Assembly: GCF_001854805.1 (NCBI RefSeq)
Contig: NZ_MBLO01000244.1
Span: 1 to 57,519, forward strand
Reading direction: 5' to 3'
DNA from: Pseudofrankia coriaricola
GTDB lineage: Bacteria; Actinomycetota; Actinomycetes; Frankiales; Frankiaceae
DNA: 57,519 nucleotides
Every line of letters starts with the position of its first letter. Within the stretch, counting starts at the first letter, position 1. Positions 11,552 through 27,255 of this stretch are shown in pieces. A program made the position numbers and the translations under genes. A model generated the notes under the pieces. That model had not been told where the DNA came from, did not search any database, and worked only from the letters and a program-made list of their open reading frames with translations.

Positions 11552-11702
11552 GTGGGTGAAATCGTCCTGGCCGTTCGCGGTACGAACGCGGCGCGCGCCG
11601 GGCGTGCCGGGTCCGCCGTATGGGCCAGGAAACCGGGCGGCGTCGGTTTCCGGCGGCCGGACTCGGCCGTGCTCGCCGGGGTCGGGTCGTAGGATCGCGG
11701 CC

Positions 11703-12344: not shown

Positions 12345-12345
12345 C

Positions 12346-12524
12346 TCATCGCAGATCAGCACCCGGGGTTCGGCGGCCATGGCGCGTGCGATCGCAATGC
12401 GTTGGCGCTGCCCGCCGGATAGCTGTCCGGGGTAGCGGCGGGCCAACTCGGGCGCGAGCTGCACAGCGTCGAGGAGGTCTCGTACCTGGGTCTGCGCCCT
12501 GGCGCGGTCGAGGCCGGCGAGCGC
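12346..12524 (-). pseudogene. ABC transporter ATPase fragment
   Basis: About 58 codons on the minus strand encode the middle of an ABC ATPase: [20 protein letters not shown] is the signature motif and RVLICDE the Walker B strand. It resembles peptide/nickel-type (DppD/OppF) ATPases. The frame is closed upstream by a stop next to the alcohol dehydrogenase stop codon, lacks Walker A, and loses homology directly after the Walker B glutamate. It is a relic trapped between the TetR gene and the dehydrogenase operon. Confidence 0.8.
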
Positions 12525-12527
12525 GCA

Positions 12528-13643
12528 TCAGCGCGCCACCTCGACGATGCCGCGGATGTTGAGCCCGTCGGCCATGTCCTGGTATGCCTTCTCGATCTCG
12601 TCGAGGGCGTAGCGACGGGTCACCATCTCGTCGAGCCGTAGCCGGCCGCCACGGTAGAGGCCGAGCAGCATCGGTACGTCCTGGTGCGGGTTGCAGAAGC
12701 CGTACAGACAGCCGACGACGGTCTTCGCGAACGAGGTGAGCAGCCCCCCCGGCAGCTTCACGGTGATCTCCTCGTAGCGGTCCGCAATGCCGGTGAGGAC
12801 GAGCGTGCCGCCCTTGCGGGTCATCTCGTAGCACTCGGTGACGACCCGCTCGGTTGCCACGCCGACGCACTGGATGACGCTGTCGGCGAGCGCTCCGGCG
12901 GTGTGGTGACGGACGTGGTCGAGCGCCTCGGCGTGCGTGGTGAAGCCGGCGTGGGCGCCGAGGCGCCGGGCGAACTCGTTCTTGAAGGGCACCGGGTCGA
13001 CGGTGACGACCGTCGCCGCGCCGCCCATGAGTGCGCCCTGCACGGCGGCGGCACCGACGCCCCCGACCCCATAGACCACGACGACGTCGCCGGGGCGGAC
13101 GCCCGCCGCCCGTACCGCCGAGCCCCAGCCCGTCGGGACGCTGCAGCCCAGCAGGCACGCCGCGTCCAGCGCGGTGTCGTCGGGCACCTTGACCAGCGAG
13201 CGCTCCTGGGCGACGAAGAAGTCGGTGAACGTTCCCAGCGCGCAGAACCCACCGGCGTCCCGGCCGTCGCCCAGATGCATGCGGTAGGTGCCGTCGGCGA
13301 GCGCCCCCGTCAGGGTGCTCGCGCCCGCGTCGCAGAGCCAGGACTGGCCGACCGTGCACCAGCGGCACAGGCCGCACGCCGGGATGAAGGAGGTCACCAC
13401 CTTGTCGCCCGGCCGCAGCCGGGTGACCCCCGCGCCGACCTCCCGCACGACCCCGCTGCCCTCGTGCCCGCCGACCAGCGGGAAGCGCAGACCCGCGCCC
13501 TTGTTGAGGTGGTCGTCGGAGTGGCACAGGCCCGCGAACGCGGTCTCGACCAGGACCTCGCCGGCGCGAGGCCCGTCCAGTGAGATCTCCTCGACGGTCC
13601 AGGGCTGGCCCGGACCGTGCAGGAGCGCGGCACGCGTCTTCAT
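12528..13643 (-). CDS. NDMA-dependent (mycothiol/nicotinoprotein-type) alcohol dehydrogenase
   Basis: A 371-residue zinc MDR. It has catalytic zinc ligands in GLCHSDDHL and VGGHEGSG, the structural zinc lobe CGLCRWCTVGQSWLC, and the Rossmann loop GVGGVGAAA. The N-terminus MKTRAALLHGPGQPW and overall length match the actinobacterial group annotated as NDMA-dependent alcohol dehydrogenases, which hold NAD(H) tightly and pass electrons to a carrier (mycofactocin in many species). The start ATG 13643 has GAGGG upstream. It is the last gene of a four-gene minus-strand unit (17438 to 12528) and would oxidise an alcohol formed by the upstream hydrolases. No mycofactocin genes are in view. Confidence 0.88.
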   Translation of the reverse strand: MKTRAALLHGPGQPWTVEEISLDGPRAGEVLVETAFAGLCHSDDHLNKGAGLRFPLVGGHEGSGVVREVGAGVTRLRPGDKVVTSFIPACGLCRWCTVGQSWLCDAGASTLTGALADGTYRMHLGDGRDAGGFCALGTFTDFFVAQERSLVKVPDDTALDAACLLGCSVPTGWGSAVRAAGVRPGDVVVVYGVGGVGAAAVQGALMGGAATVVTVDPVPFKNEFARRLGAHAGFTTHAEALDHVRHHTAGALADSVIQCVGVATERVVTECYEMTRKGGTLVLTGIADRYEEITVKLPGGLLTSFAKTVVGCLYGFCNPHQDVPMLLGLYRGGRLRLDEMVTRRYALDEIEKAYQDMADGLNIRGIVEVAR

Positions 13644-13690
13644 TTCCGACCCTCTCGAGTTGTCCGGCGTGCGGCTGGGTGCCCGGGCTC

Positions 13691-14860
13691 TCAGTGGGCG
13701 ACGAGCTGGGACGCGGTGTTGTACATGACGTCGTCCTTGACCTGCTCGTCGAGGCCGTCGAGCAGGTTGCGGAAGTCCGCGGGGGAGGCGAGTCCTTCCG
13801 CGTGCGGCCAGTCGGAGCCCATGACGATGCTGTGGTGGAAGCCGAGCTGGCGGATGATCTCCACCGGGTCGTCCTCCGGGTAGGGGACGACGCGGATGTG
13901 GTCGCGGAACACCTCGCTGGGCCGGCGGTCGAGCTGGCCGCCGATCCACGGGCCGTTGCGGCCCATGCCGCGGCTCTTGTCCATGTGCCTGACGAAGTGC
14001 GGCACCCAGGACGCGCCGAACTCGCTGGCCAGCACCTTGATATCGGGAAAGCGGCCGAACAGGTTGTCGAACACCAACGCGGACAGGGTCTCCGTGATGG
14101 GCCGCTCGCCATAGGTGTTCTGCCACTGCCACGCCGACATGCGGAAGTGGATCGGGTCCGGCTCGTGCCCCCAGGCGGGTGCCAGGTTGGCGTTGTAGTA
14201 GGCCTCGGTGATGTGGTAGCAGACCGTGGCCTTCGCCTCGTTGATTCGTGCCCAGATGGGGTCGAAGTAGGGGTCGCCCGGGCTGCGGCCGTAGGCGGGG
14301 CCGGTCGTCATGAGAATGAACCGGGCGCCGTCGGCGAGGACCTGGTCGAGCTCCTTGACGGCGAGGTCGCGGTCCTTCAGAGCGATGGTCGCCGGCGCAT
14401 AGATACGGCCCTCGTGGTCGAACCCCCACTGCTCGTTCATGTAGGTGTTGAACGAACGTAGGTTCGCGTACAGGGCGTCGGGCCGGGTGATGTAGGCCTC
14501 GGCCATCAGCCCCCAGCTACCCGGGTAGATGATGGTCGCCTCGAGCCCCTGGGCGTCCATCTCGCGCAGCCGCGCGTCACGGTCCTGGTAGACGTCGCGC
14601 ATCGGCTCGAACATGTAGGTCTCGACCGGGGCGCCGGTGCTCATCTGCTTGAGCATCTCCTTGAGCGACCCGGGCTTGTAGGCCTTCCTGAACTCGGGCT
14701 CGACGGCGACGAGGATCCGTTCGCCCATGAGGATCGCCTCGTCGCCGTTCTGCAGCGTGACCGGCTTGACGGTCCGGTGTGCCCATTCCGGCGCGATGTG
14801 CCGGGTGAACGCGTCGGGCGTCTCGTACATGTGCTGGTCACAGTCGAAGATCCTGCCCAC
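13691..14860 (-). CDS. metal-dependent amidohydrolase, family 2 (ACMSD-like TIM barrel)
   Basis: A 389-residue amidohydrolase-2 protein. The opening metal site reads FDCDQHMYE, the D-x-H variant of the usual HxH; a mid-barrel histidine is in VCYHITE, SEFGASWVPHF follows, and the closing Asp is in VMGSDWPHAEG. Members include decarboxylases, hydratases and ring-opening hydrolases. The start is GTG 14860, fixed by GGGAGG five bases upstream; the longer frame reaching 15055 is an artefact overlapping the SDR gene. It pairs with the family-3 amidohydrolase at 15720 in the same unit; a second such pair sits at 22724-25759. The two family-2 proteins share the same ending motif (GSDWPHAEGL). Confidence 0.88.
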   Translation of the reverse strand: MGRIFDCDQHMYETPDAFTRHIAPEWAHRTVKPVTLQNGDEAILMGERILVAVEPEFRKAYKPGSLKEMLKQMSTGAPVETYMFEPMRDVYQDRDARLREMDAQGLEATIIYPGSWGLMAEAYITRPDALYANLRSFNTYMNEQWGFDHEGRIYAPATIALKDRDLAVKELDQVLADGARFILMTTGPAYGRSPGDPYFDPIWARINEAKATVCYHITEAYYNANLAPAWGHEPDPIHFRMSAWQWQNTYGERPITETLSALVFDNLFGRFPDIKVLASEFGASWVPHFVRHMDKSRGMGRNGPWIGGQLDRRPSEVFRDHIRVVPYPEDDPVEIIRQLGFHHSIVMGSDWPHAEGLASPADFRNLLDGLDEQVKDDVMYNTASQLVAH

Positions 14861-14930
14861 GGCTGCCTCCCTGCGCGTGCGTGCGCTTGTGGGCGCGAAT
14901 GGTGTGGTGGAGAGAAGGACCTGACCGAGG

Positions 14931-15716
14931 TCAGGTGATCGTCCGGCCGCCGTCGACGGCGAGCTGCTGGCCGGTGACGTAGGCGGCGGCGTCGGAGAGC
15001 AGGAACCGGACCGCGCCGACGATGTCGCCGGGGGTGCCGGTGCGCTTGAGGACAAGCCGGTCGGCGAAGAAGCCTGGTGGTTCGGCCAGCCCGTCGACCA
15101 TCTCTGTCGGGAACATCCCGGGCGCGACCGCGTTGACCCGCACCCCGTGGCGGCCCCACTGGACCGCGAGCTCGCGGGTGGCGTGCGCGAGCCCGGCCTT
15201 GGCGGCGCAGTAGCCCGCGCTCGGCACCGTCAGCCCGGTGGCGACGATGCCCGACATCGACGTGATGTTGACGATCGAGCCGCCTCCGGACTCCCGCATC
15301 GCCAGCGCGCACTGGCGGGCCAGGTCCAACGGCGCCACCAGGTTGATCTCCAGCAGAGCGCGGACGTCGTCGGCGGTCTCCTTGAGCGCCGGGACTGCGC
15401 GTAGGACGCCCGCGTTGTTGACCAGCCCGTCGATCCGGCCGTGTGTGTCCAGCGCGGTGCTGACGAGCTCGGCGCGGGCGTCGTCGTCGGTCAGGTCGGC
15501 GGGCAGGACGACGCAGCGCTGGAGCCGGGCGGCGAGTTCTTCCAGCCGGTCGGCCCGGCGGCCGGTGGCGACCACCAGCGCCCCGGCCGCGTCGAGCCCC
15601 TCGGCGATCCACGCGCCCAGGCCCGAGGTCGCGCCGGTCACCAGCACGACGCGGCCGCCCACGTCGAACGGCTCACCGGCCGACCGGGCAGCCTCGGAGC
15701 TGACTGCGACGGTCAC
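14931..15716 (-). CDS. SDR family oxidoreductase
   Basis: A 261-residue classical SDR: TGATSGLG cofactor loop near residue 27, NNAG, Ser in NITSMSG, YCAAK active site, and the PGMFPTEM and YVTGQQLAVDGG segments of the FabG-like group. The GTG start at 15716 lies four bases after the stop of the upstream amidohydrolase (15720), so translation is probably coupled. It is the second gene of the catabolic unit and likely oxidises or reduces the hydroxy/keto intermediate. Substrate unknown. Confidence 0.9.
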   Translation of the reverse strand: MTVAVSSEAARSAGEPFDVGGRVVLVTGATSGLGAWIAEGLDAAGALVVATGRRADRLEELAARLQRCVVLPADLTDDDARAELVSTALDTHGRIDGLVNNAGVLRAVPALKETADDVRALLEINLVAPLDLARQCALAMRESGGGSIVNITSMSGIVATGLTVPSAGYCAAKAGLAHATRELAVQWGRHGVRVNAVAPGMFPTEMVDGLAEPPGFFADRLVLKRTGTPGDIVGAVRFLLSDAAAYVTGQQLAVDGGRTIT

Positions 15717-15719
15717 CGG

Positions 15720-17438
15720 CTAGACCATCGCCGGCGTGTCGGTGTCGCGTCCCGACCGCAGCACCCGGCCCGGGGTCTGTCCGGTGAACGTCCTACCCGC
15801 CACGATCGGCGTGCCGCCGACGACGACGTGCGCGATCCCTTCCGGCTCGCTGTAGAGCCTGCCAGCGCCGGCAGGCAGGTCGAACCTGGTGGTCAGAGGC
15901 CGCTGGGTGACTGCTGCGGGGTCGAACACGACGACGTCGGCGGCGGACCCAACAGCGAGCCGGCCGCGGCCGCGCAGCCCGTAGAGGTCGGCGGGCACGG
16001 ACGTCAGCAGCCGTACCGCCTCCTCGAGGCTGATCACCTTGTGCTCGCGGACGCCATGGTGTAGCAGCATGGTCGTGTAGGCGAAGAAGCCGATCATGTC
16101 GAGGTGCGCGCCGGCGTCGGAGGCGCCGACGACCGCGCGCGGGTCGCGCCAGATCTCGGCGCGCGCGGCCCAGTCCTCGGCGGTCGGGGTGCGCCACGGG
16201 TTGGAGAACGTGGTCCGCAGCTCGTCGGCGACGACGATGTCCATGAACGTCTCGAACGGGTCGCGGCCCTGTTCGGCCGCGATCTCGCCGACCGCGCGCC
16301 CCGCATACCCGCGGGTGGCGTCGCTGAAGGTCTCGATGATGTGCCGATTGCGCCAGTCCACCAGGTGGCTGTACGGGGACGGCGCCGCGCAGGCGTCGCG
16401 CAGCGCCGCCCGGCGGGCCGGGTCGCGCAGGATCGCGAGCCGCTCGGCCGGCGGCAGGAACAGGAAGTCGTGCAGCCCGGGCACCATGTCCAGGACGAAC
16501 CCGGACAGGAACGAGAACCGCGACGGCGGCGTGTCGGGCATGGTCAGCCCGACGACCTTCGCCCCGCGGGCCTTCGCCTGGTCGCCGAGCGCCAGCTTGG
16601 CGCGCGCGTCGTCGAGGGTGCGCGCGGCGACGGTGAGGATGTTCCAGTTCAGCGGCCGGCCCGCCGCCAGCGACATCTGGATCATCAGCTCGCCGATGTC
16701 GTCGGGGAAGGGGCCCTTGCCGGGCACGGTGGGCAGGTACTCCAGTGACGTTCCTGGGTGCTCGCCGGCCACCGCGGCCAGCTCCAGGAGCTCGGCGTCG
16801 GTCGCCCACCGCGACGGGACAGGCCGCCCCTCGCCGTCGTGGTGGCTCTGGGCACGGGTCGTCGAGAAGCCGAGGCCGCCGGCCGCGAGCCCCTCGTGCA
16901 GCAGCCGCCTCATCGTCGCCAGCTCGTCGTCCGTGGCCGGCCGCTCGGTGGCGGCCGGTCCCATCGCGACCCGGCGCAGGGCCGAGTGGCCGACCATGTA
17001 ACCGGTGTTGATCGCGAGCGTGCCGTCGAGCCGGTCGAGGAACTCGGCGGTCGTGCGCCAGTCCCAGGGCACGCCCTTCTCCAGGGCCGCCAGCGGCATT
17101 CCCTCGACCCGGGCGAGCATCCGCATCAGGTAGTCGCCGGACGTGTCGTCGAGCGGCGCGACCGTGAAGCCGCAGTTGCCGGCCAGCGCCGTGGTCACGC
17201 CATGCAGCGGGGACGGCGACAGTGTCGGGTCCCAGAAGCCCTGCACGTCGAGGTGGGTGTGGACGTCGACGAAGCCGGGCGCCACGACGAGTCCCTCGGC
17301 GTCGATCGTGCGGGCGGCGCCGTCCGTGAGCTCGCCGACCGCGACGATCCGGCCGCCGTCCACCGCGACGTCCGCGCGCCGCGCCGGCGCGCCCGTCCCG
17401 TCGACCACCTCGCCGCCACGGATCACCAGGTCATACAT
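15720..17438 (-). CDS. amidohydrolase family 3 protein (N-acyl-D-amino-acid deacylase-like)
   Basis: A 572-residue urease-like amidohydrolase. The small beta-domain starts MYDLVIRGGEVVDGTG, the metal site HTH is in PGFVDVHTHLD, GNCGFTVAP follows as in D-aminoacylases, and the closing metal Asp is in VGASDAGAHLD. The C-terminal strands return to the beta-domain. D-aminoacylase relatives hydrolyse N-acyl amino acids, but many actinobacterial copies occur in degradation clusters with unknown substrates. The start ATG 17438 has GAGGGAG upstream. It is the first gene of the unit 17438-12528; an AT-rich imperfect palindrome lies 43-60 bases upstream. A paralogue is at 22724. Confidence 0.88.
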   Translation of the reverse strand: MYDLVIRGGEVVDGTGAPARRADVAVDGGRIVAVGELTDGAARTIDAEGLVVAPGFVDVHTHLDVQGFWDPTLSPSPLHGVTTALAGNCGFTVAPLDDTSGDYLMRMLARVEGMPLAALEKGVPWDWRTTAEFLDRLDGTLAINTGYMVGHSALRRVAMGPAATERPATDDELATMRRLLHEGLAAGGLGFSTTRAQSHHDGEGRPVPSRWATDAELLELAAVAGEHPGTSLEYLPTVPGKGPFPDDIGELMIQMSLAAGRPLNWNILTVAARTLDDARAKLALGDQAKARGAKVVGLTMPDTPPSRFSFLSGFVLDMVPGLHDFLFLPPAERLAILRDPARRAALRDACAAPSPYSHLVDWRNRHIIETFSDATRGYAGRAVGEIAAEQGRDPFETFMDIVVADELRTTFSNPWRTPTAEDWAARAEIWRDPRAVVGASDAGAHLDMIGFFAYTTMLLHHGVREHKVISLEEAVRLLTSVPADLYGLRGRGRLAVGSAADVVVFDPAAVTQRPLTTRFDLPAGAGRLYSEPEGIAHVVVGGTPIVAGRTFTGQTPGRVLRSGRDTDTPAMV

Positions 17439-17480
17439 GACTCTCCCTCGCCGGCCCCGACCTCGAGGCCATGGACGCCA

Positions 17481-17498
17481 TAATAAGCTAACTAATTA
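17481..17498. promoter_or_regulatory. AT-rich imperfect palindrome upstream of the amidohydrolase unit
   Basis: TAATAAG-CTAA-CTAATTA is an imperfect inverted repeat (6 of 7 arm positions) in a short AT-rich island. It is placed like an operator or promoter for the minus-strand unit starting at 17438. Related AT-rich symmetric sequences precede the thioesterase and the fadH-like/acyl-CoA-ligase pair. Confidence 0.45.
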
Positions 17499-17659
17499 AT
17501 TTCAGCCAACTATCGATCGATACTGGTTGGGCGCGGAGTACCCGCGACTGGACCAGGTCCTCGGCCGCCAGCACCGCGGTCTTCCGGTGAACCAGGAAGC
17601 CGCGGGCGGAAGCGCCGTGCGGGCCACCACGTGACCGGTCGGGATCCGCGGCCTGGCTG

Positions 17660-18583
17660 TCACGGGCGGCCCGCGGGGCGGATCTGTGTGCTGGCGGAGA
17701 ACCGGACGGCGAGGCGTCCGTCGCCGACCGTGATCTCGCCCTCGGCGACTACGAACCGCCGGCCGCGATGGGTGACCTGGGCCGCGCTGCTCACCGGGCC
17801 GCCGCCCGCCGGCACGCCACGCACGTAGTTCACGAGGATGTCGAGCGGCAGGGCCTCGTCGTCCGGGCCGAGCAGGGTCGCGACAGCGTCCGCCACCGTG
17901 ATGTGGGCGAGCATGGCCAGGACGCCGCCGTGCACCGCGCCGAAGCTGTTCGCGACCGCCCTGGTCGGCCTGAGCTCGAGCTGGGCGCTACCGCGGCCGG
18001 CGGCGGCGCTGGTGACGCCGAGCAGTCGATGCGGGTCGGAAGGCTGTGCCTGGTTCGGGCCCTGTGTGGGGACGGTGGTGGGTGGCGCCGCCGTCGCGGG
18101 CGCGCGCCACGTCGTGCCGAGTGACCGCAGCGAGCAGATGGCCAGCAGCTCGCCCGCGGGGTCGACCAGCTCGGCGCGGGCCAGCGCCGCTGCGTCGCGG
18201 ACGGCGGTGAGTGTCGCCCTGCCTTCGACCCAGCCGGGCGCGGGCGGCGTGGGGCCGGCGAACTCCAGGCGCAGCTGGGCGCTGAGCACCGCTGTGGTGG
18301 GCGGGAGCCCGGTCGACGCCGCCGAACCACAGCACGCGTCGGCGACGATGGCCAGGGCACCGGCGAGGATCCGCCGGTCGGCGCCGAGCACCGCGGGGCT
18401 GGCAGGCATCCGGGCGACGCAGCGGCCGGCCTCGGCCTCGCGCACCTGCAGGCCAAGGGTCTCGTGGACGGGCAGCGCCGCGCCGCCTCGGCCCCGTCCC
18501 TTGCGCAGCCATTCCAGCTCCGCGGCGGCGCCGGGATCGCTCGCCGTGACGGGCGTGGTCATCGGATCACCGACGCGCGGCAC
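17660..18583 (-). CDS. tandem hotdog (PaaI-type) thioesterase
   Basis: A 307-residue protein made of two hotdog domains. The second half has the canonical helix SFGAVHGGVLAMLAHI with the HGG turn; in the first half the matching helix (ILAGALAIVADACCG) lacks the His-Gly-Gly, so one half may be only structural. Family members hydrolyse acyl-CoA thioesters and recycle CoA. The GTG start at 18583 is fixed by AAGGAGG four or five bases upstream. It lies between the FadH-like reductase and the amidohydrolase unit on the same strand, with its own AT-rich promoter region, and fits a pathway running through CoA thioesters. Confidence 0.85.
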   Translation of the reverse strand: MPRVGDPMTTPVTASDPGAAAELEWLRKGRGRGGAALPVHETLGLQVREAEAGRCVARMPASPAVLGADRRILAGALAIVADACCGSAASTGLPPTTAVLSAQLRLEFAGPTPPAPGWVEGRATLTAVRDAAALARAELVDPAGELLAICSLRSLGTTWRAPATAAPPTTVPTQGPNQAQPSDPHRLLGVTSAAAGRGSAQLELRPTRAVANSFGAVHGGVLAMLAHITVADAVATLLGPDDEALPLDILVNYVRGVPAGGGPVSSAAQVTHRGRRFVVAEGEITVGDGRLAVRFSASTQIRPAGRP

Positions 18584-18626
18584 CTTGTCCTCCTTGGCTC
18601 GTCCAGTCCTGGACGGAGGATACCTG

Positions 18627-18656
18627 AATTAGCTAAAAAATTGTTCTAAATAGAAC
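18627..18656. promoter_or_regulatory. AT-rich operator-like region with GTTCT-AAAT-AGAAC
   Basis: A perfect inverted repeat GTTCT-AAAT-AGAAC at 18643-18656 follows GAATTAGCTAAAAAATT. This unusually AT-rich patch is 44-73 bases upstream of the thioesterase start at 18583 and is a good candidate promoter/operator. Confidence 0.5.
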
Positions 18657-18779
18657 GTCTGGGTTGGCGGTGCCCGCGCGCGGCGCGACCCCCGACGGGG
18701 GAGACCTGGACGGGGGAGACGAGGCGGCGCTCCGCCGCCGCGCTGGCCGGCCTGCGCGGCGGCGTGCCGCGGCCGGCCG

Positions 18780-20816
18780 TCAAAGCGTGATTGCCAGGCG
18801 GGTGGCCTGGTCGATGGCGCGGACGGCGTCGAGTCCTTCGGCGTCGTCGGCGCCGCCGACCAGGTGGGCCCTGATGCCCCGGGCGGCGAGTGCCTGGTAG
18901 AGGCCGCGGTCGCTCTCCTGGCCGGCGCAGATGACGACGGTGTCGCAGGGATGGACGTGGGCCTGCCCGTCGACGGAGTAGTGCAGGCCGTCATCTTTGA
19001 TCGCGAGATAGCTGGCGCCGGTGATCTCGGCGACCCCGGCCCTGCTCAGGCGGCCGCGAAGGATCCACCCGGTGGATTTGCCCAGGCCGCGGCCGGTACG
19101 GCCGGCGTGCCGCTGGAACAGGGTGATCTCGCGAGCGGCCCTGCCCGCCGCCTGCGGGTCGGTGACGTCGCCGCGGCGACGGGCGTCCGGGTCCGCCACG
19201 CCCCAGTCCCGCAGGAACAGCTCCGGGTCCAGGGCGAGCTGGGGGTCGCCGACCAGGTAGTCGGCGGTGTCGAACCCGATGCCGCCGGCGCCGATGATGG
19301 CTACCCGCCGCCCAGGTGCCACCCGCCCGGTCAGCACGTCGGCGTAGGACACGACCTTGGGGTGGTCGAGGCCCGGGATGTCCGGCCGGCGCGGGGTGGC
19401 GCCGGTGGCCAGGACGATCTCGTCATATTCCTCGGCGGTGAGCTTGTCGGCGTCGACCGGCCGGCCGAGGCGCGGCGTGACGCCGAGGCGAGCGAGGCGG
19501 ACACGGTAGTAGCGGATGGCCTCGGCGAACTCCGCCTTGCCGGGGACAGCCTTGGCGAGGTTCCACTGGCCGCCGATCTCGTCCGCCGCGTCGTAGAGGG
19601 TGACCGCGTGGCCCCGTTCGGCCGCGGTGACGGCGCACGCCAGGCCAGCGGGCCCGGCGCCGACAATCCCGATCCGCCTGCGGACGGCGGGCGCGTCGGC
19701 CAGGAACTCGATCTCTCTCCCGGCGCGCGGGTTGACCATGCATGAGGCCGTGGCGTCCGTGAAGATCCTGTCCAGGCAGGCCTGGTTGCAGGCCACGCAG
19801 GTGTTGATCTCGTCGGAGCGTCCGGCGCGGACCTTGTGGGCGAAGTCGGGATCGGCCAGCAGGGGGCGGGCCATCGAGACCAAGTCGGCCGTACCGTCCG
19901 TGAGCAGCTTCTCGGCGACCTCCGGGTCGTTGATCCGATTGGACGCGATGACCGGCACCGTGACCGCGGACCTGACACGGCGCGTCGCGAAGGCCCACGC
20001 CGCGCGCGGGACGCTGGCGGCGATCGTCGGCACCGCCGACTCGTGCCAGCCGACGCCGGTGTCGAGGACGTCGGCGCCCGCGGCCTCGACCCGCCGGGCG
20101 AGCTCGGCGATCTCCTCGCCGGTCAGGCCGTCCTCGACGAGATCCACCGCGGAGATGCGGTAGATCAGGAGGAGGTCCTCGCCGACACGCTCGCGGACCC
20201 GGCGCACGGTCTCGACGGGGAGTCGCAGCCTGCCGTCGAGGTCGCCGCCGAACTCGTCGGCGCGGTCGTTCGTCCGCGGTGAGGTGAACTCGTTGATCAG
20301 GTAGCCCTCGGAGCCCATGACCTCGACGCCGTCGTAGCCGGCCTCGCGCGCCAGCTGGGCGGTGCGGGCGAACTGGTCGACGACCTCCCAGACCTGCGCG
20401 GTGTTCAGCGCCCGCGGGGCGTAACGGTTGATGCGGGCCTTTGTGGCGGACGGGCCCACGCAGCCGGGCACCTTGGCGTAGCGGCCCGCGTGCAGGATCT
20501 GCAGGGCGATCAGGCCGCCCGCGTCGTGGACCGCGCGGCACACCGCCCGATGCGGCTCGAGGTCGTGGTCGTCGTCGAGGACGCCGGACTCGGGATCCAT
20601 GCGGCCGTCCGGGTGGGGGGCGTAGCCACCGGTGAGGATGAGCCCGATCTCGCCGCGCGCCCTGGCCCCGTAGAACGCGGCCATCCGTTCCACCGGCCGG
20701 TCGAGGGTCTCCAGGCGGGTGTGCATCGCGCCCATGACCATGCGGTTGGGCAAGATGACCGGTCCCACGCGCAGCGGCGCCAGCAGGCGTGGGTAGGAGC
20801 GGGCGACGATCTTCAT
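18780..20816 (-). CDS. NADH:flavin oxidoreductase / 2,4-dienoyl-CoA reductase (FadH-like)
   Basis: A 678-residue three-part flavoprotein. It has an N-terminal Old Yellow Enzyme FMN barrel (about residues 1-340), a [4Fe-4S] site in CVACNQACLDRIF...C (C-x2-C-x3-C-x11-C), then FAD- and NAD(P)H-binding Rossmann folds with GIVGAGPAGLAC and AIIGAGGIGFD. This is the 2,4-dienoyl-CoA reductase/trimethylamine-dehydrogenase layout; electrons flow from NAD(P)H through FAD and the cluster to FMN and an unsaturated substrate. The start ATG 20816 has no clear ribosome site and lies 28 bases from the divergent acyl-CoA ligase start, so a very short or leaderless transcript is possible. The CoA context favours an enoyl- or dienoyl-CoA substrate. 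Confidence 0.88.
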   Translation of the reverse strand: MKIVARSYPRLLAPLRVGPVILPNRMVMGAMHTRLETLDRPVERMAAFYGARARGEIGLILTGGYAPHPDGRMDPESGVLDDDHDLEPHRAVCRAVHDAGGLIALQILHAGRYAKVPGCVGPSATKARINRYAPRALNTAQVWEVVDQFARTAQLAREAGYDGVEVMGSEGYLINEFTSPRTNDRADEFGGDLDGRLRLPVETVRRVRERVGEDLLLIYRISAVDLVEDGLTGEEIAELARRVEAAGADVLDTGVGWHESAVPTIAASVPRAAWAFATRRVRSAVTVPVIASNRINDPEVAEKLLTDGTADLVSMARPLLADPDFAHKVRAGRSDEINTCVACNQACLDRIFTDATASCMVNPRAGREIEFLADAPAVRRRIGIVGAGPAGLACAVTAAERGHAVTLYDAADEIGGQWNLAKAVPGKAEFAEAIRYYRVRLARLGVTPRLGRPVDADKLTAEEYDEIVLATGATPRRPDIPGLDHPKVVSYADVLTGRVAPGRRVAIIGAGGIGFDTADYLVGDPQLALDPELFLRDWGVADPDARRRGDVTDPQAAGRAAREITLFQRHAGRTGRGLGKSTGWILRGRLSRAGVAEITGASYLAIKDDGLHYSVDGQAHVHPCDTVVICAGQESDRGLYQALAARGIRAHLVGGADDAEGLDAVRAIDQATRLAITL

Positions 20817-20820
20817 ATAG

Positions 20821-20835
20821 ATAACTTAATGTTAT
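20821..20835. promoter_or_regulatory. ATAAC-N5-GTTAT palindrome between divergent catabolic genes
   Basis: ATAACTTAATGTTAT is an inverted repeat filling half of the 28-base gap between the fadH-like gene (start 20816) and the acyl-CoA ligase (start 20845). A protein bound here would cover both starts, so one site could control both genes. Confidence 0.55.
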
Positions 20836-20844
20836 TATTGTGGA

Positions 20845-22341
20845 GTGTCGAGCGTAGATCGTCACGGTGGCCGGCCGGCAACCCAGGTGGACGTGCGCGA
20901 GGGAACCTGGTCGGCGCTGGTCGCTGGAGCCGTGTCGGGAGCCCAGGAGGCGGTTGTCGGTACCGCCAACCGGTGGAGTCGCGGGGACCTCGCGGACCGG
21001 GTGGGCGGCGTCGGCGCCTGGCTGACCGGCCTGGCGCTTCCGCGGGGCCGGCCGGTTCCCGCCCTGGTCGCGGACACCGGCCCCGCGCTGGCGCTCGTCA
21101 TCGCCGGCGCGGCGATCGGACGGCCGATCGCGCCGCTCGGCTCTCGGCTGACTGTCGCGGAGCTCGCCGCCATGGCCCGAGGCCTGGGCGGTGGGGTGCT
21201 GCTTGCCGAGGCCTGCTTCGCGCCGCTAGCCGCCGAGGTCGCGTGGGCCACCGGCAGCCAGCTTGTGGTGCTGCCGGACCCGTTGCCGGTCGGCGGCCCG
21301 CGACTGCCCGCCCCGGAGGCCGACGACGTGGCCATGGTTCTGCACACCTCAGGCACGACCGGCGCGCCTAAAGCCATCGCCTACCGGCAGCGAGCACTCG
21401 CCGCCCGCGTCCGGGCCTACCAGTCCGTCGTGCAGCTCGGTCCTGGGGACGTGTTCGTCACGGCGGCCGGGTTCCACCACATCGCCGGGCTGGGCAACCT
21501 TGCCGTGGCGGTGGCCGCGGGCGCGACCGTGGTCTCGTTTCTGGCCTTCTCCATCGACGCCTGGCGGGCGCTCACACCGCTGGGCGTGACCCACGCACTG
21601 CTCGTCCCCACCATGATCGAGATGCTCCTGGCCGCCGACGCGCTGGCCCTGCCCGCGCTGCGTTGGGTGCAGTACGGAGCGGCCCCGATCCATCCCGACA
21701 CGCTCCGCGCGGCACTCGCGGCTCTGCCCGGTGTACGGCTGGCCAATCTGTTCGGCCAGACCGAGGGCTCGCCCCTGTGCGTGCTGACGGCCGACGACCA
21801 CCATGCCGCCATCACCGGCCGCCCAGAGCTGCTCTCGTCCGTGGGCCGGGCCGCTCCCGGCGTCGCGCTGCGTGTCGAGGGCGCCGGCGCGGACGGCGTC
21901 GGCGAGCTGTGCGCGCGTGGCGACCACGTGTTCGCCCCTGGCAGGGACGGCTGGCTGCGCACCGGCGACCTGGCGCGCATCGAGCCCGGTGGCTACGTCT
22001 ACCTCGCAGGCCGGACCGGGGACACGATCAACCGCGGCGGTGAGAACGTCCGCCCGCTGGAGGTCGAGACCCTGCTGCGCAGCCATCCCGCGGTCGCGGA
22101 CGCGGCCGTCGCGGGCGTGCCCGACCGACGCCTCGGGGAGGAGGTCGCCGCCTGGGTCGTGCCCGCCGACGAGAGCAGCCCGCCGAGCGAGGAAGAGTTG
22201 ACCGGCTATCTGCGGGCTCGGCTCGCCGGGTTCAAGGTGCCCCGACGCTGGGCTTTCGTCGAGTCCCTGCCCCGCGGCGCCGCGGGCAAGCTGTCGCGCC
22301 GAGCCCTGGCCGAGACATCTGTGCCCGCGCAGGGTGACTGA
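20845..22341 (+). CDS. class I adenylate-forming enzyme, acyl-CoA ligase
   Basis: A 498-residue AMP-binding protein. The P-loop motif is MVLHTSGTTGAPKAIAY near residue 165. GYVYLAGRTGDTINRGGENV is the hinge and core motif, and the C-terminal catalytic lysine is in GAAGKLSRR. The enzyme activates a carboxylic acid with ATP to the acyl-adenylate and then to the CoA thioester. The GTG start at 20845 is close to the divergent fadH-like gene and lacks a well-spaced ribosome site, so a start a few codons later is possible. With the thioesterase and dienoyl-CoA reductase it defines a CoA-dependent branch of the catabolic block. Acid substrate unknown. Confidence 0.88.
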   Translation: MSSVDRHGGRPATQVDVREGTWSALVAGAVSGAQEAVVGTANRWSRGDLADRVGGVGAWLTGLALPRGRPVPALVADTGPALALVIAGAAIGRPIAPLGSRLTVAELAAMARGLGGGVLLAEACFAPLAAEVAWATGSQLVVLPDPLPVGGPRLPAPEADDVAMVLHTSGTTGAPKAIAYRQRALAARVRAYQSVVQLGPGDVFVTAAGFHHIAGLGNLAVAVAAGATVVSFLAFSIDAWRALTPLGVTHALLVPTMIEMLLAADALALPALRWVQYGAAPIHPDTLRAALAALPGVRLANLFGQTEGSPLCVLTADDHHAAITGRPELLSSVGRAAPGVALRVEGAGADGVGELCARGDHVFAPGRDGWLRTGDLARIEPGGYVYLAGRTGDTINRGGENVRPLEVETLLRSHPAVADAAVAGVPDRRLGEEVAAWVVPADESSPPSEEELTGYLRARLAGFKVPRRWAFVESLPRGAAGKLSRRALAETSVPAQGD

Positions 22342-22359
22342 GCACCACCGGCCGCACCG

Positions 22360-22640
22360 ACACGGGGCTTGCGGATCGCGCGGGAGCTGTACGCCTTGTC
22401 AGCCAGGACATGATCGAGTCGGGTTCAGGGTCGTCCCGGCCTGTCGCGACGGATGCTGATCCCGGCCATGGCCTGCTCGAACTGGGGCGAGTCGTTCACC
22501 TTGCCCGCCGTCAGCACGACGGACAGCGGCCGGCCCTGCCCGTCGCAGGCCAGGTGGATTTTGCTCGTCAGTCCGGCCGCAGCGGGCGGGCGTCTGCCAC
22601 CGCCTCCTTGAGCAGCGGCCGTCTTGGCTCGACCCACGCC
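22360..22640 (-). mobile_element. IS5-family transposase remnant
   Basis: The minus strand encodes GLTSKIHLACDGQGRPLSVV and then LTAGKVNDSPQFEQ, the well-known DDE-region block of IS5/IS1182-like transposases in actinomycetes. After a frameshift near 22430 it continues with LDHVLADKAYSSRAIR, the next conserved block. Both ends of the gene are absent and no terminal inverted repeats are visible. It is a dead fragment lying exactly between the two halves of the catabolic block (acyl-CoA ligase and second amidohydrolase pair). Confidence 0.85.
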
Positions 22641-22723
22641 GGGTTGACCGCCATAGTGCTCCAGGTCACTATGAAGCTCAACATTGAGGTCGATGTCGAG
22701 CTTGGAAGGCGCGTGATGGTTGG

Positions 22724-24448
22724 ATGCCGCCCTACGACCTGGTGATCAAAGGTGGAACGGTCATCGACGGCTTACAGACCCCTCGTTACAAGGCCGACGT
22801 AGCCATCGCCGGCGGCCGGATCGTCCAGATCGGCAGGATCAGCGCGAGCGACGGCGCCGAGGTGGTCGACGCGTCCGGCAAGGTTGTCGCGCCCGGCTTC
22901 GTCGACCTGCACACGCACTACGACAGCCAGCTGTTCTGGGACCCGTGGTGCACGATGTCCGGCTGGCACGGCGTCACCAGCGTGGTGATCGGCAACTGCG
23001 GCTTCGGCTTCGCGCCCTGCAAGCCCACCGACCGCGAGCGGGCCATGCTGAGCCTGTCCCGCAACGAGGCCGTGCCGATGGAGACGATGAGGGTCGGCAT
23101 GCCGTGGGACTGGGAGACCTTCCCGGAGTTCCTCGACAGCGTCGGCCGGGCGCCCAAGGGCGTCAACGTCATGTCGTTCGTACCGCTCTCGCCGCTGTAC
23201 GGCTATGTGGTGGGTCTTGACGAGGCCAAGAGCCGGGCGGTGACCGACGACGAGCTGCGACGCATGTGTGAACTGCTCGTGCAGGCGATGGAGGCCGGCG
23301 CCTGCGGGCTGTCCGCGCAGATCCTCGGTGACGTCGGCAACGTCCAGCTTGACTACGACGGCACGCCCATGGTGACCGACCTGATGAGCGAGCGCGACCT
23401 GCGGGCGTTCTGCCAGGCGCTGGGCTCGCTGGGCCGGGGCGTGGCCCAGGTGACCGCCCCGCTGGAGACGGCGGCCTTCATGGCGCGCGAGAGCGGCCGG
23501 CCGATCATCTGGAACGCCCTGCTCGCCGACGGCGCGCTCAACCAGCACGGCGGCCAGCAGCTGTCGCACCAGGAGGCGCTCGCCCGTCTGGTCGAGCTGA
23601 ACGAGGGCGAGGGCGTCCGCGTCTTCGCCCAGGCCCTCACCACCAACTTCGCCTCCGAGTTCACATTCGAGGAGTACAACCTCGCCGACGCGATTCCGTG
23701 TTGGAAGGAGGCTCTGCTCGGCACGGTCGCCGAGAAGCGGGTGAAGCTCGCCGACCCCGCGCGGCGCGCGGCGATGAAGGAGATCCACGAGCAGCGCGGC
23801 GGCCTGTTCGGCGCCGGCTACCCGCTCGACCAGATCAAGGTCCACTGGATCTCCAGCGATGTCGCCCGGGCCAGGGAGCTCAAGGAGACCTACGAGGGCT
23901 ACACAGTCGGCGAGATCGCCGCGCGTGAGGGCAAGCACCCGATCGACGCGATGCTCGACGTGGCCGTCGCGGGCGAGCTGCGCGTCGGATTCGCCACGCC
24001 GCTGCTGGAGACCCCGCCGGAGTCGATGCGCGAGATCGCGAACTGCCCGGTCGCGCTGCCCGGTGTCAGCGACGGCGGCGCCCACACCAAGTTCGTGACG
24101 ACCGCGCGGTACCCGAGCGAGCTGCTCGGGCTGTGGGTCCGCGAGCACGAGATCATGACGCTGGAGCAGGCGCACTGGCGGCTGTCCGCCTACCCGGCGG
24201 CGGCCGCGGGCCTGAAGGGCCGAGGCTTCCTCGCCGAGGGGGTGCCGGCGGACGTGATCGTGTACGACCCGGAGACGGTCGACAGCCTGCCCGCCGAGCG
24301 CCTCTGGGACTACCCGGCCGGTGAATGGCGCCTCGTTCAGAAGGCCAAAGGCTACGACCGGATTATCGTCAACGGGAAGACCACCTTCATCGACGGCGAG
24401 TGCACGAAGGCGACTCCAGGCCGGCTTCTTCGCCACGGCACGGACTGA
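22724..24448 (+). CDS. amidohydrolase family 3 protein (N-acyl-D-amino-acid deacylase-like), paralogue
   Basis: A 574-residue paralogue of the protein at 15720. It begins MPPYDLVIKGGTVIDGLQTP, carries HTH in GFVDLHTHYDSQLFWDP, then GNCGFGFAPC, and ends the barrel with GVSDGGAHTKF containing the last metal Asp. The start is ATG 22724 with GGAAGG about 13 bases upstream. It is followed after 15 bases by an amidohydrolase-2 gene, so the two are one unit. Alignable blocks with the 15720 protein include the HTH and GNCGF regions, but the middle differs, which suggests related but not identical substrates. Confidence 0.9.
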   Translation: MPPYDLVIKGGTVIDGLQTPRYKADVAIAGGRIVQIGRISASDGAEVVDASGKVVAPGFVDLHTHYDSQLFWDPWCTMSGWHGVTSVVIGNCGFGFAPCKPTDRERAMLSLSRNEAVPMETMRVGMPWDWETFPEFLDSVGRAPKGVNVMSFVPLSPLYGYVVGLDEAKSRAVTDDELRRMCELLVQAMEAGACGLSAQILGDVGNVQLDYDGTPMVTDLMSERDLRAFCQALGSLGRGVAQVTAPLETAAFMARESGRPIIWNALLADGALNQHGGQQLSHQEALARLVELNEGEGVRVFAQALTTNFASEFTFEEYNLADAIPCWKEALLGTVAEKRVKLADPARRAAMKEIHEQRGGLFGAGYPLDQIKVHWISSDVARARELKETYEGYTVGEIAAREGKHPIDAMLDVAVAGELRVGFATPLLETPPESMREIANCPVALPGVSDGGAHTKFVTTARYPSELLGLWVREHEIMTLEQAHWRLSAYPAAAAGLKGRGFLAEGVPADVIVYDPETVDSLPAERLWDYPAGEWRLVQKAKGYDRIIVNGKTTFIDGECTKATPGRLLRHGTD

Positions 24449-24463
24449 GCGCAGGAACGAGAC

Positions 24464-25759
24464 GTGATGGCAGACAACGATGCCTCTCCGTTAGTGATCC
24501 TGGGGACAACGGCCGCCGGGTGTGCGAAGGAAGATCATTTTCGCACACCCTTTGGCCCACTAGAGACCGTGTTCGACGCGGACAACCACTACTGGGAGTC
24601 GAGCGACGCGTTCACCCGGCATCGCGACCCCGCGTTCGCCGATCGGGGCCTGCGGGTCGTCGAGGTAGACGGCGCTCTCCGGTACTTCGTCGGCGACCGG
24701 CCGCATCCGATTCTGCCAGGGCCGGGGGACGCGCACCCGCGGCCGCGGCCCGGTGCCCTGTACGACTACTTCAGCGGCCGTTCCGACAAGGGCTCGGTCG
24801 GCGCGGAGCTGGCCTGCGAGGTGCCCGCCGAGCATCCCGAGTGGTTCAACCGGGACGCGCGGCTGGCGTGCATGGACGTGCAGGGCGTGCAGGCGGCATG
24901 GATGTTCCCGTCGCACGCCGTCTGCCTCGAGGGGCCGATGCAGCCCGACATCGAGGCGTCGCTGGAGGTGCTGCGGGCCTTCAACCGCTGGCTCGAGGAG
25001 GACTGGGGGTTCGCCTACCAGAACCGGATCTTCGGGGTCCCGTACCTATCGCTGTCGGACGTCGACGGCGCGGTCGCGGAGCTGGACTGGTGCCTGGACC
25101 GCGGCGCTCGGGTCGTGAGCATCCGCAACGGGCCGGCGTTCACCCCGGACGGCACCCGATCGCCAGCCGACCCGATGTTCGACCGGTTCTGGGCGCGCGT
25201 CCAGGACGCCGGCGTCGTGGTGGCGCCGCACGCCGGCTTCGATGACGGCTACCGCGAGGTCGAGGCGGCGGTCGCGCGCGCCTGGGGCTACGGTGCCGCC
25301 CAGCGCCAGGGCGACACGAACGCGATCACGCTGAGCGAGCCGTTCGTGAACATGCTGATGAAGCACCGGCTCGTCCAGGACTTCGCGGCCGCCCTTGTGG
25401 CCCACGGCCTGTTCGACCGGTTCCCGGGCGTTCGCGTGGCCTATATCGAGAACGGCGGAACCTGGGTCGGGCCGCTGCTGCATGGCCTCGAACTGCTGGC
25501 CGCCCAGAACCCGGGCATGTTCCAGGACTCGCCGGTCGACCAGTTCATCGAGCACTGCTGGGTCGCGCCGTTCGTCGAGGACAACGTCGAGGAACTGGCC
25601 GTGCACCTGCCGGTCGAGCGGATCCTGTTCGGCTCGGACTGGCCGCACGCCGAAGGACTCGGCGCGCCGAAGGACTTCCTGGCCGCACTGGCCGGGTTCG
25701 CGCCCGAAGCCCAGCGTCGGATCATGGTCGACAACGCCCGGGAACTGACCTTCGGCTGA
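24464..25759 (+). CDS. metal-dependent amidohydrolase, family 2, paralogue
   Basis: A 431-residue family-2 amidohydrolase. The metal entry motif is FDADNHYWESSDAF, VVAPHAG and IENGGTWVGPLL follow in the barrel, and FGSDWPHAEGLGAPKDFL closes it with the catalytic Asp. It resembles the 13691-14860 protein but is longer at the N-terminus, which contains a 30-residue lead. GTG 24464 and ATG 24467 are both plausible starts after AGGA. It is co-transcribed with the family-3 hydrolase 15 bases upstream; a strong hairpin follows the gene. Confidence 0.88.
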   Translation: MMADNDASPLVILGTTAAGCAKEDHFRTPFGPLETVFDADNHYWESSDAFTRHRDPAFADRGLRVVEVDGALRYFVGDRPHPILPGPGDAHPRPRPGALYDYFSGRSDKGSVGAELACEVPAEHPEWFNRDARLACMDVQGVQAAWMFPSHAVCLEGPMQPDIEASLEVLRAFNRWLEEDWGFAYQNRIFGVPYLSLSDVDGAVAELDWCLDRGARVVSIRNGPAFTPDGTRSPADPMFDRFWARVQDAGVVVAPHAGFDDGYREVEAAVARAWGYGAAQRQGDTNAITLSEPFVNMLMKHRLVQDFAAALVAHGLFDRFPGVRVAYIENGGTWVGPLLHGLELLAAQNPGMFQDSPVDQFIEHCWVAPFVEDNVEELAVHLPVERILFGSDWPHAEGLGAPKDFLAALAGFAPEAQRRIMVDNARELTFG

Positions 25760-25766
25760 CACTGGG

Positions 25767-25840
25767 CACCGACGCCACCAGTCCGCACCGACGCCACCAG
25801 TCCGCACTGATCCACCAGTCCGCACTGATCCACCGATCCG
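25767..25840. repeat. short tandem repeats after the amidohydrolase gene
   Basis: Two identical 19-base units (CACCGACGCCACCAGTCCG at 25767 and 25786) are followed by two related 18-base units (CACTGATCCACCAGTCCG at 25805, CACTGATCCACCGATCCG at 25823). They lie in the untranslated spacer before the terminator. Confidence 0.85.
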
Positions 25841-25860
25841 CGCCGACCTGCACCGAACCT

Positions 25861-25895
25861 CGGCCCGTTCCCTGGCACCGCCGAGGAACGGGCCG
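25861..25895 (+). terminator. hairpin terminator of the amidohydrolase unit
   Basis: CGGCCCGTTCC and GGAACGGGCCG form a perfect 11-base stem around a 13-base loop, followed by a mixed T-rich stretch (ATTTCACCGCCCTTTTCC). It lies between the amidohydrolase and the lipoprotein gene. Confidence 0.7.
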
Positions 25896-25926
25896 ATTTC
25901 ACCGCCCTTTTCCTTACCTGACCGAA

Positions 25927-27255
25927 ATGGATGGACCAGGCATGCTCAGGACAGAGATCTCGCCCGACCGGGCTGACCGCGTATGGCGATGGCGGCGGCC
26001 TGCGGCCACGCGCTGGGGCGCGGCGGCCTTAGCCGCCGGCCTGGTCGCCGTCCTGGCCGCCTGCGGTGGCGGTAGCGGCGGTAACGCGGGCGCCTCCTCG
26101 TCGGGAGCGCCAAGCGCGGGCGGGCTGCTGGGGCCGTCCAACCCGGCGAAGGGCACGCCGGTGCGGATCGGGCTGATCTCGGATGACAAGGGCCCCGTCT
26201 CGGACCTGTCCATCGAGACCGCCGTCGCCAAGGCCACCGTCGGCTACCTGAACGACCACAAGGGCGGTATCGCCGGCCACCCGATCGAGCTGGTGACGTG
26301 CAAGGCCCTCGCCGACCCGGCCAACGGCACGGACTGCGCGAACCGGATGGTCGAGGACAACGTGACCGCCGTCCTCGTCGGCACCTCCTCGGTCGTGGAG
26401 AGCATCTGGCAGCCGCTGCAACAGGCGCATATGCCGACGTTCCTCAGCTATGGGGCCGGAGACATGCTGAAGAACGCCGACACGACGTTCTTCCTCACCG
26501 ACTTCTCCTACCCGGTCAAGGCGGTGATCCAGCAGGCCAAGGACAAGGGGGCGAAGAAGGTCACCGCCATCACGATCGACGTCCCCGCCGCGATGGGCGT
26601 TTGGAACGATGTCGCGCCGGCGATGTTCAAGTCGGCCGGCCTCCAGCTGGAGGTCGTGCCGATTCCCCCGGGCACCGCCGACATGACACCGCAGATCCAG
26701 AGCCTGATCTCTCGCGGCGATCCCGGGGTCGTGCAGGTCGTGGGCAACGACGCGTTCTGCATCAGCGCCTTCAACGGACTGCGGGCCGTCGGGTTCACCG
26801 GCGTCGTGGTCCCGCACCCGAACTGCATGTCGGACAAGACCCGGACGGCGGTGCCCAGCAGCTTCCTGAAGGGACTGGTCGTTCCGGGGGTCGCGCCCGT
26901 CGGCGTGGACAGCCCCTCGACACGCCTTTACAAGGCCGTCGTGGCCGCATACGGCGGCAAGGGCATCGACACCGGCAGGGTCGCCGGGCTGTCGATGTTC
27001 ACGCAGGTCGCCGCCTTCCAGCTGGCGACCGCGAAGATCTCCGGTGACGTCACGGCCGAGTCCATCGTCGCCGCGATCCGGGCGATGCCGGAGCAGGACC
27101 TGCCGGGCGCGGGCGGCCTGCGGTTCCGGTGCAACGGCAAGGCCATCCCGAGTGAGCCGGCGGTCTGCGTCCGTGGCTGGCTGACCACCACCCTCGACGA
27201 CAAGGGGCAGCCCACCGACTATCTGCCCGTCGGCGTCACGCCGATCGAGAACTAG
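25927..27255 (+). CDS. ABC transporter substrate-binding lipoprotein (branched-chain amino acid type)
   Basis: A 442-residue periplasmic-binding-protein-like lipoprotein of the LivK/Peripla_BP_6 class. A basic N-terminus and hydrophobic stretch end in the lipobox VLAAC (Cys near residue 47), then a Gly/Ser/Ala linker. The receptor part begins PVRIGLISDDKGPVSDLSIE and includes YLNDHKGGIAGHPIELV, both family hallmarks. No permease or ATPase genes are adjacent, so it either uses a transporter elsewhere or is a stand-alone sensor. Its position after the amidohydrolase block suggests it binds the pathway substrate or an amide/aromatic acid; this is inference. Several in-frame ATGs exist; I kept the first. 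Confidence 0.88.
   Translation: MDGPGMLRTEISPDRADRVWRWRRPAATRWGAAALAAGLVAVLAACGGGSGGNAGASSSGAPSAGGLLGPSNPAKGTPVRIGLISDDKGPVSDLSIETAVAKATVGYLNDHKGGIAGHPIELVTCKALADPANGTDCANRMVEDNVTAVLVGTSSVVESIWQPLQQAHMPTFLSYGAGDMLKNADTTFFLTDFSYPVKAVIQQAKDKGAKKVTAITIDVPAAMGVWNDVAPAMFKSAGLQLEVVPIPPGTADMTPQIQSLISRGDPGVVQVVGNDAFCISAFNGLRAVGFTGVVVPHPNCMSDKTRTAVPSSFLKGLVVPGVAPVGVDSPSTRLYKAVVAAYGGKGIDTGRVAGLSMFTQVAAFQLATAKISGDVTAESIVAAIRAMPEQDLPGAGGLRFRCNGKAIPSEPAVCVRGWLTTTLDDKGQPTDYLPVGVTPIEN

Follow-up and report, generated by a model that had tools for sequence, protein, structure and literature searches.

Closest described systems

Two pairs of amidohydrolase-family genes lie close together on a 57,519-bp stretch of Pseudofrankia coriaricola DNA (contig NZ_MBLO01000244.1 of assembly GCF_001854805.1; hereafter the window), which is one whole contig of an 11.2-Mb draft genome in 280 contigs. 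Each pair combines a family-3 gene (Amidohydro_3; AH3A or AH3B) with a family-2 gene (Amidohydro_2, PF04909; AH2A or AH2B), and the first pair belongs to a seven-gene set, unit 1, that also contains enzymes of coenzyme A (CoA) chemistry. Among solved structures, PtmU3 (PDB 6omp), which we take to be an enzyme of platensimycin/platencin biosynthesis, resembles AH2A in its Amidohydro_2 fold and in its metal ligands, including an extra Glu; it differs in being biosynthetic and diterpenoid, whereas unit 1 is a catabolic-type operon with an acyl-CoA ligase, a FadH-type reductase and a thioesterase, and the two proteins are only 21% identical. PtmU3 acts on CoA-ligated substrates, which the CoA-linked context of unit 1 fits, and is called a beta-hydroxylase (PMC7782822). 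AibH1H2 and the SfbO-type enzymes, members of the amidohydrolase-related dinuclear oxygenases (AROs), a group defined in PMC10811679, share the dinuclear ligand set and the fold of AH2A and AH2B (PMC10811679, PMC10401708, PMC7782822). They have other substrates, and the operon of AibH2 includes a Rieske partner, whereas none was seen in our scans of the window; a Rieske gene nearby was a criterion of the ARO screen in PMC10811679, not an obligatory feature, and the substrates of the ARO candidates in that study are described as not readily inferable from genomic data.

DitZ from Rhodococcus rhodochrous (PDB 8uyr) is the highest-scoring solved relative of our family-2 profile, and is known here by its PDB name and title, its function not having been found in the papers searched; MAP2389c (PDB 4dzi), an Enzyme Function Initiative target entry with no stated function, is the nearest single structure to AH2A, at 31% identity. 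The family-3 proteins resemble D-aminoacylase (PDB 1m7j) in fold, in the HxH motif, and in the Cys and the Asp on strand 8, but have no conserved counterpart of its histidines on strands 5 and 6, which we take to be the ligands H220 and H250, although no paper confirming this was found. The alcohol dehydrogenase (ADH) of unit 1 belongs with the mycofactocin-linked, N,N-dimethyl-4-nitrosoaniline (NDMA)-dependent enzymes, as it exceeds the curated TIGR03989 cut-off (464 bits vs 440, scored on a longer open reading frame), and MftC, the one mft gene searched, is present in the genome (601.5 bits, cut-off 265). Neither a family-3/ARO pair nor this operon was the subject of any paper found in the open-licence literature searched, and no described pathway with this gene set came to light there, in agreement with the initial annotation of the window.

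The joint between the two units

The two pairs lie on opposite strands around the CoA-related genes, and the initial annotation had taken them for the ends of a single catabolic block, the duplication of the hydrolase pair being explained by two cleavage steps or by two substrates entering one route. Profile scans and structure matches located every gene that it had named, but comparison with the nearest relative genome used for synteny (G006) divides these genes into two units. Unit 1 occupies 12528-22341, with the stop codon of the ADH gene at one limit and the end of the ligase gene at the other, and positions 12528-22326 align to G006 C1:3,515,121-3,524,798 with 85-92% DNA identity and all seven genes in the same order. 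Unit 2 extends from AH3B at 22724 to the end of a substrate-binding protein gene at 27255, and positions 22644-27265 align, reversed, to G006 C1:5,711,095-5,715,594 with 86-93% DNA identity. In G006, apart from the window's genome the only one in which close orthologs of both pairs were seen, the two locations are separated by 2.19 Mb. Between the units lies a joint of 317 bases (22327-22643, no strand assigned), aligned to neither G006 locus, which contains a DDE_Tnp_1 transposase remnant on the minus strand (22452-22568; 28.4 bits, cut-off 23, E 1.7e-06) in a frame that is closed by a stop further on.

Homologs of unit 2 in other genomes likewise lack the FadH-type reductase, the thioesterase and a close ligase. 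We examined 13 loci with 14 pairs, representing 14 of 24 places outside the window with at least 66% identity to AH3B. An ARO lies within 0.9 kb of the family-3 gene in 14/14 places, whereas the FadH-type reductase and the thioesterase had no match in any of the 13 loci, the ligase had matches of only 27-31% in four, and the ADH was matched in three at 48-52%, one of these being a short piece. Because the units are far apart in G006, a transposase remnant marks the joint and the unit-2 loci are without FadH, the thioesterase and a close ligase, the mirror arrangement is best regarded as a junction. We thus consider it probable, from sequence comparison, that the apparent block represents two separate catabolic units lying side by side at a transposon scar, with unit 1 specifying an acyl-CoA pathway that includes a PtmU3-like AH2A and unit 2 providing a second pair for a different substrate. 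A single block, for which one could point to the nine genes standing side by side in the window, seems very improbable in the face of the same three observations, and the proposal that one route involves two cleavage steps or takes in two substrates loses its support with it. What persists of the earlier description is the CoA-dependent catabolic gene set itself, as an operon with one family-3 and one family-2 gene: co-conservation with the CoA genes extends to AH3A and AH2A in the seven-gene unit of G006, but not to the whole block.

The junction might instead be an assembly error, as misjoins are usual in transposon sequence and the window is a whole contig of a draft. Against this, only a short, degenerate fragment is present, and no further copy of it was found among the compared loci (the whole genome was not searched for copies). 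The left part of the window (254-33400) maps piecewise to about ten distant places in G006, while the segment at 33.8-57.5 kb is collinear with G006 except for length differences. Two control stretches of the same genome compared with G006 were, respectively, collinear with one length difference and patchy; since one of the two is also patchy, patchiness is not special to this place. A misassembly with no real rearrangement is accordingly assigned a low probability, and we retain the two-unit arrangement in what follows.

Family-2 proteins as predicted oxygenases

AH2A (13691-14860, minus strand; 97% in G006) and AH2B (24464-25759, plus strand, start at 24464 or 24569; 95% in G006) match Amidohydro_2 at 3e-16 and 1.2e-19, respectively. 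Proteins of PF04909 are mostly annotated as hydrolases, and these two had been described as ACMSD-like hydrolases. The label of hydrolase is now doubtful, as both proteins carry the full oxygenase metal-ligand set; DitZ, PtmU3 and SfbO outscore ACMSD. AH2A contains D8, H10, H216, E280, D350 and H353, plus an acid, E355, and these match the six ligands of AibH2 (Asp25, His27, His211, Glu265, Asp337 and His340; PMC7782822) by a correspondence drawn through alignments with PtmU3, DitZ and SfbO and through the AibH2 motif order, without a direct AibH2 alignment. AH2B keeps the full six-ligand set, which is invariant in 16/16 aligned family-2 sequences and present in 47 of the 48 ARO partners of family-3 genes, the 48th being cut by a contig end; the partners were picked by ARO profile and overlap with the 16. 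The extra acid two positions past the last ligand, Glu313 in PtmU3 and Asp342 in AibH2, is missing from AibH1 (PMC7782822), and an Asp or Glu occurs two residues after the last ligand His in 48/48 partners, the truncated one included.

When the profile of 16 family-2 proteins was run against structures, DitZ, 4dzi and PtmU3 scored 310, 306 and 236 bits, followed at lower scores by SfbO and three related entries (85-112), the AibH chains (80-84) and the best ACMSD (74). A search with the AH2A sequence alone at E 0.01 returned 11 sequences, all of them belonging to 4dzi, DitZ, the AROs or the ARO partner AibH1, and a fold search with its AlphaFold model (predicted local distance difference test score 76.5) placed 4dzi, PtmU3, SfbO, DitZ and two related entries at the top. 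Because the six ligands and the extra acid are conserved, AH2A and AH2B are predicted to be dinuclear oxygenases of the ARO type, and they are probably metal-dependent oxygenases of which at least one acts on CoA-linked compounds.

Several observations weigh against this assignment. It remains a prediction, because according to PMC10811679 it is not known which structural features confer oxygenase activity; the same six types of ligand occur in the mononuclear relative AibH1 (PMC7782822); in the fold search with the above model, ACMSD ranks 12th and AibH lower still; and no Rieske protein or ferredoxin was found in Pfam scans of 27 of the 29 genes called at 0.9-36.6 kb. The ligand types of AibH1 and the rank of ACMSD, along with membership in the same Pfam family and the 74-bit ACMSD score, would suit decarboxylases, hydratases or hydrolases with a mononuclear metal site, as in ACMSD or resorcylate decarboxylase, rather than oxygenases. 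We hold this to be unlikely, as AROs score higher by profile, and the acid that AibH1 lacks is present in 47/47 complete partners. If CoA-linked AROs turn out to be common, many of the “amidohydrolases” in actinobacterial catabolic operons would be misnamed oxygenases; the window's genome contains 79 PF04909 matches, and 19 of the best 30 score above 200 bits with the ARO profile, which is a score and not a ligand check.

Family-3 proteins and their metal site

AH3A (15720-17438, minus strand; Amidohydro_3, 1.3e-39) and AH3B (22724-24448, plus strand; 2.7e-22; 94% in G006 at C1:5713793) are 37-38% identical and belong to one uncharacterised subgroup with the D-aminoacylase fold, their best structural matches being D-aminoacylases (1m7j) and N-acyl-D-amino-acid deacylases. 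We aligned 66 rows, comprising 18 of the family-3 set A1 and 48 partners, duplicates included. The residues H60 and H62 (HxH), H79 and C89 (GNCG) are found in 66/66, and D441 and H445 in 65/66, with one gap at D441. No conserved His could be found in these rows on strands 5 and 6 (model strands 231-235 and 263-268, with numbers assigned by hand), where position 233 is mostly Glu or Gln and position 266 mostly Asn. The motif that we take to be typical of strand 6 in D-aminoacylases was found in 0 of 133 reading frames with HTH/GNCG motifs, and the corresponding strand-5 pattern has matches in some of these frames, apparently by chance elsewhere in the frame.

As no conserved His is present on strands 5 and 6, amide hydrolysis by the family-3 proteins is doubtful, and the earlier label of D-aminoacylase-like hydrolases is borne out for the fold and for the HxH, Cys and Asp residues, but not for the strand 5/6 histidines. 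That these proteins act as genuine deacylases or lactonases through a binuclear metal site, and that N-acyl compounds are hydrolysed by the pair, is improbable in our estimation: the nature of the best structural matches and the retained HxH, Cys and Asp would agree with such a role, but the 66 rows, some of them duplicates, and the 133 frames speak against it.

Association of family-3 and ARO genes

Six family-3 genes of this class were counted in the window's genome, among them the two paired genes of the window itself, and a seventh that matched weakly was set aside. Three of the six have an Amidohydro_2 match within 1.5 kb, as compared with a chance expectation of roughly 4%, obtained by simple arithmetic from 79 Amidohydro_2 matches in 11.2 Mb. 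Of the 30 best family-3 loci, which are the best matches rather than a random sample and include those of the window and of G006, 17 have an ARO-profile match no more than 1.5 kb away, and in many loci the two genes are on one strand with a gap of fewer than 60 bases. Conversely, short flanks of the 30 best Amidohydro_2 loci of the window's genome contained no family-3 match of this group. For the wider family we took 80 loci, dropping 12 near-duplicate Streptomyces loci and nine without a called family-3 gene above 300 bits, and in the resulting 59 loci Amidohydro_2 was the commonest neighbour family, yet accounted for only 7/57 operonic neighbours vs 3/57 distant genes (the first 57 of 101, covering only loci L051-L101). 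The pair is common near AH3A but seldom seen across the wider family. We rejected a general rule placing this group next to any oxygenase, given the low Amidohydro_2 count and luciferase-like genes at 2/57 neighbours vs 3/57 distant genes.

Around the 80 loci, ARO matches peak within 1 kb of the family-3 gene (10 in 142 flanks) and increase again at 3-6 kb (7, 6 and 5 in 126, 119 and 115 flanks), the latter largely because of Streptomyces. In eight Streptomyces loci (L075, L077-L081, L086 and L087), the ARO and family-3 genes share a strand and are 3-5 kb apart; the gene order in L075 is ARO, luciferase-like, short-chain dehydrogenase/reductase (SDR), luciferase-like, family-3 and aldehyde dehydrogenase. 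Other contexts of the pair include a Mycobacterium locus (L102) with P450 genes on both sides, and L032, with aldehyde dehydrogenase, ADH and thioesterase genes.

Two gene orders of the pair occur, and in the window AH3B and AH2B are direct neighbours, while an SDR gene stands between AH3A and AH2A. The trees of the two partners correlate at 0.73 in a mirror-tree comparison of 47 pairs, after a truncated 48th was dropped; this value includes species relatedness and is no proof of co-evolution. The unit-1 ARO lies outside the clade of AROs that partner AH3A relatives, which counts against our reading of unit 1 and indicates that the ARO partner can be exchanged. We tentatively suggest that the family-3 subgroup has lost amidohydrolase chemistry and forms with AROs a recurring oxygenase-plus-partner module, assembled more than once (to judge from two gene orders, two ARO clades and one partner exchange) and used in several oxidative pathways, here perhaps in an acyl-CoA route for a hindered cyclic or terpenoid acid. 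Alternatively, the family-3 protein might not be an enzyme of the route but assist the ARO, in the way that AibH1 accompanies AibH2; the tight same-strand pairing over small gaps in many loci and the altered metal site would be in line with such a role. We give little credence to it, as AH2A relatives are without a family-3 gene in the seven loci read, the partner clade was exchanged in unit 1, and the family-3 protein belongs to a Pfam family other than that of AibH1.

Unit 1 and CoA chemistry

Outside G006, AH2A relatives with 47-79% identity were found in four genomes, and an acyl-CoA ligase lies within four genes of the relative in four of the seven loci read (at least 47% identity). In three of these four, which were scanned with Pfam, a thiolase, an acyl-CoA dehydrogenase or an enoyl-CoA hydratase is present. 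L225, with the closest relative (79%), contains two ligases, one of them truncated at the contig edge and 59% identical to that of the window, along with a luciferase-like gene and a thiolase; in L226 and L227 a ligase is near the relative, and the Pfam scan of L226 also revealed an acyl-CoA dehydrogenase and an enoyl-CoA hydratase; in L228 the ARO stands directly between a thiolase and a ligase, and three genes away from it is an acyl-CoA-dehydrogenase-like gene. No family-3 gene was found in the stretches read around these relatives (0/7 loci). In L032 and L034, from two genomes of one genus, an AH3A relative (71%) and an ADH (78%) are accompanied by a ligase (53-54%) about 9 kb away on the same contig. 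A further trio of AMP-binding, family-3 and Amidohydro_2 genes was observed in the window's genome (G000:C258:59875-65674).

Against a general link to CoA chemistry, L226 and L227 belong to one genus; no ligase was found in three of the seven AH2A-relative loci (L229, L230 and L231), although L230 is a contig of 5.85 kb; and the other three of five AH3A-relative loci (58-71%) contain neither an ADH nor a ligase above 50%. The unit-1 FadH-type reductase and thioesterase had no tblastn match at 1e-8 in the seven AH2A-relative and five AH3A-relative loci, and the full seven-gene set was seen, besides the window, only in G006. Genome-wide, Amidohydro_2 genes are only mildly enriched near AMP-binding genes under a simple uniform model, with five small fragments left out of 91 AMP-binding matches: 10/79 are within 3 kb (4.7 expected, P 0.018) and 6/79 within 1.5 kb (2.9 expected, P 0.075). 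Unit 1 is nevertheless a CoA-linked locus, some parts of which recur in other genomes of the Frankia family. Because AH2A relatives lie near acyl-CoA ligases in 4/7 loci, the role that we consider likeliest for AH2A is to oxygenate an acyl-CoA in the manner of PtmU3.

The families of the ligase, FadH-type reductase, SDR and ADH are established by profile scores, while we infer the order of steps, the ARO activity and the step assigned to AH3A. The NDMA-type zinc ADH (12528-13643, minus strand; 94% ortholog in G006) may feed alcohols into the route, perhaps giving a carboxylic acid, which the acyl-CoA ligase (20845-22341, plus strand, start at 20845 or 20887; AMP-binding 2.3e-45 and AMP-binding_C; 88% in G006) would activate to its CoA ester. 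AH2A, as a PtmU3-like dinuclear oxygenase, may then hydroxylate the acyl-CoA, and the SDR (14931-15716, minus strand; adh_short_C2 8.6e-56; 89% in G006), located 3 nt from AH3A, may oxidise the new hydroxyl. AH3A could conceivably act on the oxygenated product, perhaps on a lactone or a C-C bond. Conjugated double bonds would be removed by the 2,4-dienoyl-CoA reductase of FadH type (18780-20816, minus strand; Oxidored_FMN 4e-79), and the tandem hotdog (4HBT/PaaI-like) thioesterase, identified by profile matches (17660-18583, minus strand; 74-75% in G006), would release the acid. The reductase is full length, with residues 7-677 aligned to 1-670 of 1ps9 at 738 bits and a two-domain architecture binding flavin mononucleotide (FMN) and flavin adenine dinucleotide (FAD), and it contains CxxCxxxC-x11-C, which we take to be an Fe-S cluster motif. 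Identification of this reductase as BaiCD or as mycofactocin OYE_2 was rejected, with scores below the curated NCBIfam cut-offs (398/825 and 441/793 bits, respectively).

A hindered cyclic or terpenoid acid as the substrate of unit 1 is a guess by analogy, prompted by PtmU3 and FadH; the ligase, the FadH-type reductase and the thioesterase provide a practical handle on substrates. Gene content, synteny, the transposase remnant, metal-ligand residues and neighbourhoods can be read directly from the DNA, and any enzyme activity or substrate named here is a prediction. In a plasmid search, the ligase had one relative, from Mycobacterium branderi (51% over 79% of the query), and AH3A had eight Sphingobium records at about 37%. 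On one Sphingobium plasmid (L236, 7986-10600), a taurine-dioxygenase-like gene comes next after the family-3 relative (37%), and genes for a reductase and an alcohol dehydrogenase are nearby. Scans for sigma-70 promoters and terminators gave counts near the shuffle level (1 vs 0.5 and 3 vs 2.5, respectively).

Unit 2 and neighbouring genes

In unit 2, the family-3/ARO pair, together with a Peripla_BP_6 substrate-binding protein (25927-27255, plus strand, start at 25927 or 25942; 1.3e-33), may serve a substrate other than that of unit 1. The binding protein accompanies the pair in 4 of the 13 unit-2 loci (L045, L046, L047 and L198), and belongs to a large family expansion, with more than 20 DNA-level paralogs among the matches listed in G006 alone. 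L045 (G006, 5983-14515) contains a second pair, 60-69% identical, about 2.6 kb from the unit-2 pair, with the binding protein between them. A nitroreductase gene near unit 2 (27564-28265) is a possible candidate for an electron donor; its 64-65% relatives are located one gene from AH2A-like AROs in L226 (17011-17775) and L227 (12736-13443).

Elsewhere in the window, a CrtC-type lipocalin protein is encoded at 30414-31484, with its G006 match at a site unrelated to the sites of its neighbours, and a gene of glutamate-cysteine ligase family 2 occupies positions 5854-7299.

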